From: Pseudomonas oryzihabitans
GTDB lineage: Bacteria > Pseudomonadota > Gammaproteobacteria > Pseudomonadales > Pseudomonadaceae
NCBI RefSeq assembly: GCF_006384975.1
Contig: NZ_CP021645.1
Coordinates: forward strand, 4,368,001-4,432,000
Direction: 5' to 3'
Length of the DNA: 64,000 nt
The notes below the pieces were generated by a model. It was not told where the DNA came from. It ran no database searches and worked only from the letters and a program-made list of their open reading frames with translations. Below are positions 787 to 60,438 of this stretch, piece after piece. The position numbers and the translations under genes are program-made. The stretch's first letter is position 1. The number at the start of each line of letters is the position of its first letter.

Positions 787-818
787 GTGTCTGTTCGATA
801 CTACGAATTAGGGTACTG

Positions 819-960
819 GGCTCTGTCTGAAAAATGCCTGCGCTCGGTCATGCGGCGTTAAAAATCCGTTCGGAATGCTCATTTACCACTCGTAAACTCC
901 GCTTCCTCACGGATTTTTGCCTTGCCTGACCTTCGCTCGGCGACTTTTCAGACAGGCCCT
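819..960. repeat. Dispersed structured repeat, copy A
   Basis: A ~140-bp element between ubiB and hisI. The outer ends are inverted repeats (CTGTCTGAAAA at 823-833 against TTTTCAGACAG near 945-955). Perfect 10-bp inner arms lie at 860-869 (AAAAATCCGT) and 909-918 (ACGGATTTTT). Between them is the core shared with two other copies in this window. On the minus strand it reads GAGGAAGCGGAGTTTAC, a 5-nt spacer, then GTAAATGAGCATTCCGAA. A third partial arm pairs GTCATGC (847-853) with GCCTGAC (924-930), 6 of 7 positions. No coding capacity. The family name is unknown to me. Confidence 0.8.
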
Positions 961-14520: not shown

Positions 14521-14668
14521 CTCAGAGGCTGTCCAGAATATCGCGAGCTAGAGCCAAACAAGGCGAAAATGCCTGAGGAAGCGGAGTTTACAGATAGTAA
14601 ATGAGCATTCCGAAGGCATTTTCAACGCGGTTTGGCCGACGCGCAGCGGATTATGGGCAGCCTCTCAG
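14521..14668. repeat. Dispersed structured repeat, copy B
   Basis: Same family as copies at 819 and 60292. Outer arms: CTCAGAGGCTGTCCAGAAT (14521-14539) against the complement of 14650-14668, 16 of 19 matching. Middle arms: GCCAAAC (14553-14559) / GTTTGGC (14630-14636), perfect. Inner arms: GAAAATGCCT (14565-14574) / AGGCATTTTC (14614-14623), perfect. The shared core is GAGGAAGCGGAGTTTAC (14575-14591), a 5-base spacer and GTAAATGAGCATTCCGAA (14597-14614). The right end covers the ponA stop codon. Confidence 0.85.
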
Positions 14669-17091
14669 AAGAGATCCATCGGCGCCGTCTCACTCGAGGG
14701 CAACGGCGTGCCCGGGGCAGTGCCACGGGGCAGTTCGTCCAGGCTCGGCGGGGTGTCCTCGCTCTTGAACAGTTCAAAGTAGGCGTTCGGCGTGCCGGGT
14801 GGTGCGGCGCGTCCGGTGACCGGATCGATCCGTACCGAGACGATGCCGTCCGGTTCCTTGAGCTGATGCGCCGGTTTGCCCTTGAGCGCAGCGCCCATGT
14901 ACTTCATCCAGATCGGCAGGGCCACGGTGCCACCGAATTCCTGGCGGCCCAGGGTCTCCGGCTGGTCGAAGCCGGCCCAGACGGTGGTCACGTAGTCGCC
15001 GTTGTAGCCGGAGAACCAGGTGTCCTTGGATTCGTTGGTGGTACCGGTCTTGCCGGCCAGGTCGGTCCGGCCCAGCTCCAGTGCCTTGCGGCCGGTGCCG
15101 CGCTTGATCACGTCCTGCAGCATGCTGTTCATGATGTAGGCATTGCGCGGGTCGATGATCTGGGGTGCGAACACCGGCGCGGGATTGGCCGGATCGGCAT
15201 TGATGCCATCGGTGGTCGGCGCGGCCGAGACCTCGACGCCAGCGTTGGGCTTGGCTTCGGCCTGTTGTGGTACCCGCGGCGGATTGGCGCGATAGACCAC
15301 CTTGCCGTCGCGATCGACCACGTGGTCCACCACATAGGGCGTGACCTTGTAGCCTTCGTTGGCGAACGCCGACCAGCCGGTGGCCACTTCCAGGGGCGTC
15401 AGGCCCGGTGTGCCCAGTGCCAGCGACAGATTGCGTGGCAACTGATCGCGCTCGAAGCCGAAGCGGCTGACGTAGTCCAGCGCATAGTCGATGCCGATGG
15501 CCTGCAGCACCCGGATCGACACCAGGTTGCGCGAGCGATAGAGCGCCTCGCGCAGGCTGATGGGGCCGAGGAAGGTGTTGTTGTCGTTCTTCGGTCGCCA
15601 GGCTTCGTCCGGATTCTCGTCCATGAACACGATGGGGGCGTCGTTGACCAGGCTGGCCGCGGTGAAGCCCTTTTCCAGCGCCGCACTGTAGATGAACGGC
15701 TTGAAGCTGGAGCCCGGCTGGCGGCGTGCCTGGGTGGCGCGGTTGTAATTGCTCTGTTCGAAGGAGAAACCGCCGACCAGGGCGCGGATGGCGCCGTCCT
15801 GCGGATCCAGGGAGACCAGGGCGCTCTGGGCTTTGGGGATCTGCGAGAACTTCAGACTGCCATCGTCCTGCCGCTCGACGCGGATCAGGTCGCCGACCTT
15901 GACCACGTCCGCCGGTCCATTGGGACGCGGGCCCATGCTGTTGGCGCTGAGATAGGGGCGGGCCCACTTCATGCTGTCCCAGGGCACGGCTTCTTCCTTG
16001 CCATCGCGGGTCAGGACCAGGATGCCGCTCTTCTCCACCTGGGTGACGATGGCCGGGTCCTGGCCGCCGACCGTGCGCTGCTTCTGCAACTCGGCGAGCC
16101 AGTCGCTGCGGCTGCGGCCGGGGAAGCGGGCTTCCGGGCCGCGATAGCCGTGGCGCTGGTCGTAGTCGGTCAGGCCGTCACGTACCGCTTCGAAGGCGTC
16201 CGTCTGCAGGTGGCTGTCGACGGTGGTGTAGACCTGGTAGCCGTCGGTATAGGCGTCGCTGCCATAACGGCCGACCATCTCGGCGCGGGCCATCTCGGCG
16301 ATGTAAGGTGCGTTGAGCTCCGGCACGGCCACGTGATGGTAGGCCTCCAGGGGCTCCTTGACGCTCTCCTGATAGGTAGCCTGGTTGATATAGCCGAGCT
16401 TGAGCATGCGCTCGAGAATCCAGTTGCGTCTTTCCAGGCTGCGCTCGGGGTTGGCCACCGGGTTGTAGCGCGAAGGCGCCTTGGGCAGGCCGGCGATCAT
16501 CGCCATCTGGGCTATGCTCAAGTCCTTGATGGACTTGCCGTAGTACACCTGGGCGGCGGCCTCGATGCCGTAGGCCCGGTTGCCCAGGTAGATCTTGTTG
16601 ACGTAGAGCTCGAGGATCTCGTCCTTGGTCAGGTGGCGCTCTATTTGCAGGGCGAGCAGGATCTCGGTGAATTTGCGCGAGAAACTGCGTTCGCTGGTGA
16701 GGAAGTAGTTCTTGGCGACCTGCATGGTGATGGTGCTGCCGCCGGTTTGTATATGTCCGGTGGTGACCAGTTGGCTCAGGGCGCGCGCCAGGCTTTTCAG
16801 GTCCACGCCATAGTGATTGGCGAAGTTGTCATCCTCGGCGGAGAGCAGGGCATGGATGAAGTCAGGGGGGATTTCATTGAAACGCAGCGGCGAGCGGCGC
16901 ATTTCGCCAAATTCGGCGATGAGTTTGCCATCCGAGCTGTACACCCGCAGCGGGATCTGCAGTTGCACGTTACGCAGGGCATCGATGGAGGGCAGGCTGG
17001 GGCTGAGGTAGAGGAAGGTGCCGCTCAGGCCCAGTAACAGGCTGCAAATCAGGGCGACCAACGACCACCAGAAAAATTTCAGAACACGCAT
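14665..17091 (-). CDS. ponA: Penicillin-binding protein 1A (bifunctional glycosyltransferase/transpeptidase)
   Basis: 808-residue class A PBP (MrcA) that polymerises and cross-links peptidoglycan. One N-terminal membrane anchor (WWSLVALICSLLLGLSGTFLYL). The GT51 domain has catalytic Glu in HALLSAEDDNF (about residue 87), TGGSTITMQ and the EILLALQIER region. An OB-like insert follows. The transpeptidase domain has SxxK in PGSSFKPF, SxN in YRSRNL and KTG in AGKTGTT. ATG at 17091 taken; a TTG lies one codon upstream. Divergent from pilM, as in other pseudomonads. The stop codon lies inside a repeat. Confidence 0.96.
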   Translation of the reverse strand: MRVLKFFWWSLVALICSLLLGLSGTFLYLSPSLPSIDALRNVQLQIPLRVYSSDGKLIAEFGEMRRSPLRFNEIPPDFIHALLSAEDDNFANHYGVDLKSLARALSQLVTTGHIQTGGSTITMQVAKNYFLTSERSFSRKFTEILLALQIERHLTKDEILELYVNKIYLGNRAYGIEAAAQVYYGKSIKDLSIAQMAMIAGLPKAPSRYNPVANPERSLERRNWILERMLKLGYINQATYQESVKEPLEAYHHVAVPELNAPYIAEMARAEMVGRYGSDAYTDGYQVYTTVDSHLQTDAFEAVRDGLTDYDQRHGYRGPEARFPGRSRSDWLAELQKQRTVGGQDPAIVTQVEKSGILVLTRDGKEEAVPWDSMKWARPYLSANSMGPRPNGPADVVKVGDLIRVERQDDGSLKFSQIPKAQSALVSLDPQDGAIRALVGGFSFEQSNYNRATQARRQPGSSFKPFIYSAALEKGFTAASLVNDAPIVFMDENPDEAWRPKNDNNTFLGPISLREALYRSRNLVSIRVLQAIGIDYALDYVSRFGFERDQLPRNLSLALGTPGLTPLEVATGWSAFANEGYKVTPYVVDHVVDRDGKVVYRANPPRVPQQAEAKPNAGVEVSAAPTTDGINADPANPAPVFAPQIIDPRNAYIMNSMLQDVIKRGTGRKALELGRTDLAGKTGTTNESKDTWFSGYNGDYVTTVWAGFDQPETLGRQEFGGTVALPIWMKYMGAALKGKPAHQLKEPDGIVSVRIDPVTGRAAPPGTPNAYFELFKSEDTPPSLDELPRGTAPGTPLPSSETAPMDLF

Positions 17092-17157
17092 CAAGAGACT
17101 TTTCGAATGGAAAGAGGGAAAAGGCGACAGGTGACGGTCAGCCTACACGGCGTCGCC

Positions 17158-17249: not shown

Positions 17250-18323
<1,074 letters not shown>

Positions 18324-18917
18324 ATGGCCCGCATCAACCTCTTGCCCTGGCGGGAACAGCTGCGCGAAGAACGACGCAAGCAGTTCCTGGTGATCCTGGG
18401 CGGTATCTTCGTGTTGTCGTGCGGCGCCGTGTTCCTGGGGGACCAGTACCTGTCCGGGGAAATCGCTCGTCAGGAGGCGCGCAACGCCTTTATCCAGCAG
18501 AACATCGCCCAATTGGACGTGCGCATCAAGGAAATCAGCGAACTCAAGACCCGGCGGCAACAGCTGCTGGCGCGCATGAAGATCATCCAGGACCTGCAGG
18601 GCAACCGGCCGGTCATCGGTCATGTCTTCGATCAACTGGTGCGAACATTGCCGGATGGCGTCTATTTCCGCGAAGTGAAGATGCTCGGCGACACCCTGTC
18701 GATCAGCGGCGAGGCGGAATCCAACAATCGGGTCTCCAATCTGATGCGTAATCTGGATGCCTCGGATTGGTTCGCGTCGCCTACGCTGATCGAGGTGAAG
18801 GCGACTACGGCCGGTGCCGTGGATCAGGCCAATACCTTCCAGCTCACCGTCAAACAGACCCAGCCCGGTGCGCCCACGGCCACACCTGCACCGGTCGCCA
18901 CGGGAGACAAGCCATGA
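18324..18917 (+). CDS. pilN: PilN, type IV pilus inner-membrane protein
   Basis: 197-residue bitopic protein. MARINLLPWREQLREERR at the extreme N-terminus is the conserved INLLPWR motif that docks into PilM. One membrane helix follows (QFLVILGGIFVLSCGAVFLG, about 20-39), then a periplasmic coiled coil and ferredoxin-like fold. It pairs with PilO and links PilM to the lipoprotein PilP. It starts on the base after the pilM stop and overlaps pilO by 4 bases. Confidence 0.97.
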   Translation: MARINLLPWREQLREERRKQFLVILGGIFVLSCGAVFLGDQYLSGEIARQEARNAFIQQNIAQLDVRIKEISELKTRRQQLLARMKIIQDLQGNRPVIGHVFDQLVRTLPDGVYFREVKMLGDTLSISGEAESNNRVSNLMRNLDASDWFASPTLIEVKATTAGAVDQANTFQLTVKQTQPGAPTATPAPVATGDKP

Positions 18918-60205: not shown

Positions 60206-60291
60206 TGACGGCTCGTCCGGTGCGGGGCTCGCCAGTCTAAAGAGCACCGCGAGGAGCGGCAAGGGCAGGCGCGCCGGCGCCGCCGCGCGCC

Positions 60292-60434
60292 AGGTTCTGT
60301 ACGAAAAATCGCCGAGCGAAGGTCAGGCGAGGCGAAAAAGGCTGAGGAAGCGGAGTTTACGCGTGGTAAATGAGCATTCCGAAGCCTTTTTCAACGAAGC
60401 ATCACCGAGCGCAGGTATTTTTCGTATAGAACCT
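60292..60434. repeat. Dispersed structured repeat, copy C
   Basis: Best-formed copy. Outer arms AGGTTCTGTACGAAAAAT (60292-60309) against the complement of 60417-60434, 17 of 18. Perfect inner arms GAAAAAGGCT (60334-60343) / AGCCTTTTTC (60383-60392). Core GAGGAAGCGGAGTTTAC (60344-60360), 5-base spacer, GTAAATGAGCATTCCGAA (60366-60383). Segments between outer and inner arms (CGCCGAGCGAAGGTCAGG and ACCGAGCGCAGG) are shared with copy A. The end lies 4 bases from the stop of the dynamin-like gene. Confidence 0.88.
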
Positions 60435-60438
60435 AGGC

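Follow-up and report, generated by a model that had tools for sequence, protein, structure and literature searches.

What is the short palindromic element that occurs three times in this part of the Pseudomonas oryzihabitans genome, and how does it spread? By the window, we mean the whole 64,000-nucleotide stretch that was analysed. A preliminary description, which was made from the letters of the window, noticed three copies of about 140 bp with a fixed core and with arms that vary together, and suggested either a mobile DNA element or a structured RNA. We think it quite likely that this is a MITE that is moved in trans by IS5-family transposases and that carries a conserved folded module that helps the element to spread.

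The three copies in the window

The near identity of the three cores is not what chance would give: the core pattern, GAGGAAGCGGAGTTTAC-N5-GTAAATGAGCATTCCGAA, has exactly three exact matches in the window and none in 100 shuffles of it. As the preliminary description had it, the inner and outer arms of each copy are self-complementary, with the sequences that it gave, and within each copy the arms pair with each other (arms that matched the flanking genes instead had been named as grounds for giving up the idea). Its bounds for the copies were right to within four bases, and we refined them by using empty sites in related genomes and the sequences of the ends (Table 1). The right-hand TCA of copy 2 is also the stop codon of ponA (TGA on the minus strand).

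Table 1. Positions of the three copies and their parts, numbered from the first letter of the window.
Feature	Position	Strand	Basis
Copy 1, C-type (GGGCCTGTCTGAAAAGT on the core strand)	818..959	-	Sequence
Copy 1, location	between hisI and ubiB		Gene names read from ORFs
Copy 1, core	869..908	-	Exact pattern match
Copy 2, B-type (terminal repeat GAGGCTGTCC; family form GAGCCTGTTC)	14525..14664	+	Sequence
Copy 2, location	between malic-enzyme gene and ponA		Gene names read from ORFs
Copy 2, core	14575..14614	+	Exact pattern match
Copy 2, left TCA target duplication	14522..14524		Empty site AATCTCAGAAGAG in G009
Copy 2, right TCA target duplication	14665..14667		Empty site in G009 and ORF 14665-17094 (-)
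Copy 3, A-type (terminal repeat GGTTCTGTACGAAAAAT)	60293..60433	+	Sequence
Copy 3, location	between metX and dynamin-like gene		Gene names read from ORFs
Copy 3, core	60344..60383	+	Exact pattern match
Copy 3, left inner arm GAAAAAGGCT	60334..60343	+	Pairs with 60383-60392
Copy 3, right inner arm AGCCTTTTTC	60383..60392	+	Pairs with 60334-60343
Copy 3, probable TA target duplication, left copy	60291-60292		Now CA
Copy 3, probable TA target duplication, right copy	60434..60435		Empty site GCTAGG in G009

Anatomy and end types

A copy begins on the outside with a terminal repeat, about 17-20 bases long, which is followed by a middle section that is paired in part. Further in, the conserved asymmetry AAGGC/AACGC precedes an inner stem with some ten pairs. 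On the core side of this stem are a short stem of the GGAA/TTCC type, a GC/GC step that has a bulged A, an internal loop (GGA/GA), and finally a GTTTAC/GTAAAT hairpin whose loop is five variable bases. The elements are 140-215 bp long with matching arms and, judged from length alone, have no coding gene, as is usual for a MITE. The genome has ends of three types, which we call A (GGTTCTGTACGAAAAAT), B (GAGCCTGTTCAAAATCT), and C (GGGCTTGTCTGAAAAGT); copies 3, 2, and 1, respectively, have these ends.

Copies at the long end of the range, which reaches about 215 bp, have extra small hairpins at fixed positions. Between GCGGA and GTTTAC there is a 16-base unit, single or double; the others are the hairpin CTGG-N4-CCAG, right of the core, and the module GGCC-TAGGC-GGCC, on the left. 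The 16-base unit is itself compensated (CTCG/CGAG in some copies and CCCG/CGGG in others, by direct reading of interrupted copies). We considered a pseudoknot between CCTAGGCGGCCCC in the left module and GGGGCCGCCTAGG in the right module of the long copies; either module can fold on itself. We also considered whether the core had been inserted into pre-existing hairpins, and we rejected this because conserved bases stand both inside and outside the inner arms.

A few copies have unusual structures. Eight of them (L072, L073, L074, L240, L242, L247, L283, and L284) have another module of about 60 bases (GGCTGGCCCG...GCGCCAGCGAATCAAA) in place of the left AAGGC section, and this module is found in several copies whose arms differ. 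L166 and L178 have A-type ends on a C-like interior, so that both outer arms are unlike the usual type for that interior. At L002 and L031, the element occupies the loop of what is probably a transcription terminator, and the arms of that hairpin extend beyond the element.

Copy number in the genome

The whole genome (5,364,174 bases) has 42 plain copies of the core with at most three mismatches, of which 31 are exact, while a reversed control pattern had no matches in the same genome at this threshold. Another 18 copies have 10-40 bases, an extra hairpin, interrupting the core, for a total of at least 60. By eye, the distribution of the copies between the strands of the chromosome shows no firm bias.

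Because the core was the search key for our scans of the genome, the genus, the class, and the phylum, its constancy is partly by construction and is overstated, and copies with diverged cores will have been missed. Two observations are independent of the search key. One is the conservation of the AAGGC/AAC bases, which lie outside the pattern. The other is a search of the genome with the A-type end alone, which gave 35 matches at 22 places, one of which is an insertion sequence; 18 of the remaining 21 places contain the core, which in one of them is damaged. A recheck of these places with a simple core pattern missed L022 and L034, both of which have an exact core. The other three places (L214, L215, and L217) have an A-type end and lack the core, and are probably remnants.

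Empty sites and target duplications

On the comparison of empty with occupied sites, which the preliminary description had proposed, the element is mobile, as had been suspected. The site of copy 2 is empty in the related genome G009 (AATCTCAGAAGAG), and the empty site shows the same TCA that flanks copy 2 on both sides. The site of copy 3 is empty in the same genome (GCTAGG), which makes TA the probable duplication there. Both copies are also absent from the eight further relatives displayed. The site of copy 1 is occupied in four relatives (G001, G003, G010, and G011) and empty in four others (G006, G007, G009, and G012), and G008 has a remnant of this copy from which the core has been deleted.

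Target duplication is also apparent across the family. Among 56 B-type copies, orthologues included, 29 have TNA at both ends, and in 25 of these the two triplets are identical, as compared to about 10 expected. In the other 27 copies, TNA is missing at one or both ends. Predicted reading frames stop within six bases of an end of the element at 12 of the 30 loci examined, although this is partly trivial because TNA at the ends supplies stop codons, and the gene calls are approximate.

Transposases with matching ends

The preliminary description saw no transposase nearby, and indeed none of the six matches to the one family we searched for (DDE_Tnp_1) lies within the window; transposases with matching ends are encoded elsewhere in the genome. 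The A-type insertion sequence (910 bp, positions 17557-18466 of the contig) has GGCTCTGTACGAAAAAT at both ends and one of the DDE_Tnp_1 matches. The B-type insertion sequence (about 848 bp) has the ends GAGCATGTTCAAAATCT and GAGCCTGTTCAAAATCT, lies between TTA triplets, and has two of the matches. Both transposases are read in more than one frame and were searched as pieces. The pieces from the A-type matched the NCBIfam model for IS5-family transposases (NF033580) at 126 and 140 bits, above the cut-off of 110, while those from the B-type scored 84 and 73 bits, below it. The pieces from both types also match the Pfam families DUF4096 and DDE_Tnp_1.

So the A-type and B-type elements share their terminal repeats with a full-length insertion sequence in the same genome. 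We did not find a partner for the C-type among the five transposase loci that we scanned. When compared by eye, the elements and the ends of the A-type and B-type insertion sequences are identical only for about 17-20 bases, and beyond these terminal repeats we saw no likeness that would suggest that the interior derives from a parent insertion sequence. Not all authors require such derivation for a MITE. The end AGGCTGTTGAAAAAG was found in three of four other genomes, which says nothing about a partner insertion sequence there. The genome also has three copies (L121, L122, and L123; 98-99% identical) of an insertion sequence of about 1.43 kb, whose ends do not match those of the element with up to two mismatches over 15 bases.

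Covariation of the arms

To align copies from the genus, we extracted 124 elements. Filtering removed 12 with insertions, damage, or divergence, and two were duplicates; without L117, this left 109 distinct copies, of which 108 belong to the genus and one (L116) to a plasmid. L118 (from a plasmid) and L191 and L193 (from the genus) had been dropped for want of a recognisable core, and L120 was too near the end of its contig. The genus copies from outside the P. oryzihabitans genome came from 80 stretches that were chosen from among the matches listed. We also aligned 53 copies across lineages, nearly all of them from other genera or from other Pseudomonas.

In the genus alignment, 25 of the 40 predicted pairs are compensated, that is, they have changed on both sides. 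With the given structure, 95.8% of the cells are paired, as compared to 33.5-48.7% if the partners are slid by 1-3 columns, and none of 500 shuffles matched the real alignment on any of five measures. The helices of the core are almost invariant within the genus and hence are uninformative about covariation there. Across lineages, 21 of 28 pairs are compensated, and 92.8% of the cells are paired, as compared to 31.3-44.9% with slid partners; these percentages are biased towards well-formed copies because the 53 copies were hand-picked, for diversity and for the lack of large insertions, from 111 printed stretches. In this set, two of the eight core pairs have matched changes (in 3/53 and 1/53 copies), and the AAGGC/AACGC flanks are invariant or nearly so. 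Related sequences might beat shuffles even without any structure, an objection that is partly answered by the controls with slid partners and by the comparison across lineages. Thus, the covariation goes beyond chance on every measure that we counted, and the proposal that the folded shape is under selection is supported by this and by the asymmetry between the strands that is described below.

Several copies from Bacteroidota (in G381, G382, and G386) read ACCGCAG...TGAGGAT, which is a matched change in the GC step. This step hardly varies in Pseudomonas.

Strand asymmetry and changes in orthologous copies

By parsimony on one approximate FastTree tree of the 109 copies, and reading along the core strand, we inferred that Watson-Crick pairs had changed to G·T 80 times and to A·C 42 times (p = 7e-4), with 16 returns from G·T and 2 from A·C. 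Since strand-symmetric mutation alone would give equal numbers, it seems that the strand that folds is the core strand, either as RNA or as single-stranded DNA. The asymmetry is modest. It is clear in the outer stem (48 G·T and 20 A·C) and in the inner stem (23 and 8), absent in the middle stem (6 and 5), and reversed in the core (3 and 9).

We also compared the inner stems of ten pairs of orthologous copies, whose flanks are 86-97% identical over 72-100 bases. Two pairs were excluded because of an insertion or shift (L039/L046 and L129/L150), which leaves eight. L132 and L152 differ at two fully compensated pairs; L007 and L141 differ by one compensated pair and one break; and between L034 and L062 there are two one-sided changes and a two-sided one that gives a T·G pair. 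In the other five, the inner stem has changed one-sidedly only. As matched changes are in the minority in resident copies, most of them must date from the spreading lineage or be due to conversion between copies.

Distribution across bacteria

Within the genus, plain copies with at most two mismatches are present in 11 of 13 genomes and the interrupted form is present in 10 of 13, including the P. oryzihabitans genome in each case. Within the class, 47 of 369 sampled genomes (again including this one) match the core with at most two mismatches, and reversed controls gave no matches. Many of the genomes that carry the element have tens of copies.

A scan of named genomes gave at least 119 stretches with the core. 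Among the matches listed (80), 44 are titled Pseudomonas, 17 are titled as Bacteroidota (12 Alistipes, 2 Rikenellaceae, and 1 each from Tidjanibacter, Pedobacter, and Lentimicrobiaceae), and 19 have other titles, including Nitrosomonadales, Nitrosomonas, Stutzerimonas, Vreelandella, Marinospirillum, and Rahnella. Phage records had no match to copy 3, and genomes of E. coli had no match to the copy from Rahnella. In IMG/VR, seven contigs have the core.

All 17 of the listed Bacteroidota records are metagenome-assembled, so errors in binning need to be considered. L299, which is titled Pedobacter, may be misbinned: it is 60% G+C and has Pseudomonas-like arms. L325, which is titled Alistipes, adjoins a gene that has relatives with 86-90% identity. 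Among the 120 relatives listed, 13 are named, and all 13 are from Alistipes or Rikenellaceae, which implies that at least this copy sits in the chromosome of a member of the Rikenellaceae. At L303, L325, and L327, nine proteins encoded next to the element were named with NCBIfam, and these names did not decide the host. Six genomes behind Bacteroidota-titled loci have 9 to 52 copies each, with at most three mismatches, yet among 296 genomes drawn from Bacteroidota there were matches only in the centre genome and in one other. A presence this patchy, with so many copies per genome, suggests that the element arrived horizontally and then multiplied in bursts.

Discussion

How would such an element move? 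We expect that its terminal repeats are recognised by IS5-family transposases from other parts of the genome and that these enzymes insert it at TNA or TA, so it is probably the resident transposases that move it. Copy 2 would have gone exactly into the stop codon of ponA, and the duplication would have restored the stop. Between the ends, the element would carry the covarying inner stem, the purine internal loop (GGA/GA), and the TTTAC/GTAAA hairpin with its variable five-base loop. The terminal repeats would change to fit different insertion sequences while the folded module persists. In ordinary MITEs, the ends are more conserved than the middle. Here the ends vary but the middle is kept, so mobilisation by the terminal repeats alone does not seem sufficient to explain the family. 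We infer that one folded strand, either of single-stranded DNA or of RNA, aids the spread of the element rather than the host. If this strand is exposed during replication or excision, or if it is a short RNA, it could recruit a factor that is common to both phyla.

We offer a broader account only tentatively, and as a single joint claim it is rather doubtful. The folded module could have spread between phyla by switching repeatedly to the terminal repeats of resident insertion sequences, as a parasite of many transposases, with a core that aids the spread in a strand-specific way via a factor that is shared by Pseudomonadota and Bacteroidota. This core would comprise the GGA/GA loop, the bulged A, the AAGGC/AACGC loop, and the optional peripheral hairpins.

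Other explanations do account for parts of the evidence. Another recombinase, or a single-strand transposase, may use the folded core directly as its substrate (attC-like or HUH-like), with the IS5-like ends being secondary. The core does recur across phyla with different ends, and the conserved unpaired bases and the strand asymmetry fit a folded single-strand site. Nevertheless, duplications of TNA or TA, and terminal repeats that resemble those of the resident IS5 elements, are in keeping with a DDE transposase, and we consider the explanation by a folded substrate unlikely. The notion that the element is a structured regulatory RNA, or stabilises or terminates mRNAs, and serves host genes after being spread by chance, seems quite improbable to us. 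The cross-lineage covariation and the conserved internal loops do resemble those of a structured RNA, as does the preference of the core strand for G·T over A·C. However, a regulatory role in the host is spoken against by the even orientation of neighbouring genes: in 14 cases the gene to the left points into the core strand, and in 15 it points away (we examined 30 of the 42 plain copies, and both neighbours were called in 29; the calls used GC content by codon position and are approximate). This weighs against the structured RNA of the preliminary description as far as a role in the host is concerned. Also, none of the relatives examined has copy 2 or copy 3, orthologous copies mostly change one-sidedly, and no Rfam family matches.

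Does the covariation reflect selection at all? Template switching or hairpin repair could copy one arm onto the other, in which case covariation would be a by-product with no selected function. The arms are often perfect palindromes, and L132 and L152 differ by two matched changes along with the loop, as conversion would give. On the other hand, the mismatched internal loop (which is within the search key) and the asymmetric AAGGC/AACGC flanks, which such a process could easily correct, have stayed uncorrected across lineages, one-sided changes are frequent between orthologous copies, and this process predicts no excess of G·T. We think it very improbable, and we prefer a MITE whose folded module is maintained because it helps the element to spread. 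That the ends change while the middle stays the same across phyla, with compensated arms, points to a hitherto unrecognised job that folded DNA or RNA does for mobile elements as they spread.

We looked for this family among known ones. At the gathering score, no Rfam family lies over the element in the window or at 12 other loci, and at a permissive threshold there were weak matches only (the best had 19 bits, against a cut-off of 44). In the window, Rfam does identify the anti-ponA RNA asponA (RF02812; 145.9 bits at 16822-17113 on the plus strand), at the ponA gene next to copy 2. Text searches of the literature with the letters of the core or with a longer core string gave no relevant paper, and searches by description gave no such named family; the coverage was mostly of journals other than subscription ones. 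As far as the available text goes, PMC4666352 concerns a different, G/C-rich triplex motif. So the family is common in the class but is without a match in Rfam or in the literature searched, and a name for it would account for a large class of repeats between genes.

Among the known systems, the REP sequences and REPINs, which are moved by RAYT transposases, are also dispersed palindromes in Pseudomonas. According to the available part of PMC3733652, REPs are tagged with GTAG or CGTC at one end. We found no such tag at the foot of the hairpin in our elements, which instead end in IS5-type repeats that read GGTTC, GAGCC, or GGGCT or near forms of these. The ERIC and YPAL elements of enterobacteria are, by description, similar in being intergenic, about 100-170 bp, and able to form long stem-loops (YPAL is marked +++ in the structure table of PMC2267715), whereas that paper lists them for other genera.

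MITEPsy1 of Pseudomonas syringae shares several features with our element. In the portion of PMC3189936 that was available, it is short and non-autonomous, it transposes in vivo, its terminal repeats closely resemble the ends of ISPsy2 (listed as "IS5?"), and a short target that contains TA is duplicated. It has close copies in some lineages of P. syringae and similar sequences in other bacteria. Unlike our element, MITEPsy1 is 100 bp long, duplicates four nucleotides (CTAG or YTAA), and has the ends GGAAGGTCTGAAAAAGCC; we compared the two by description, and that portion of the paper mentions no conserved folded core. Finally, R178 of P. fluorescens is intergenic and 101 bp long and has internal inverted repeats of 11 bp, with 18, 28, and 9 copies in three strains (PMC2718517, in the part available). 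Judging by this description, R178 may be an early report of the same family.
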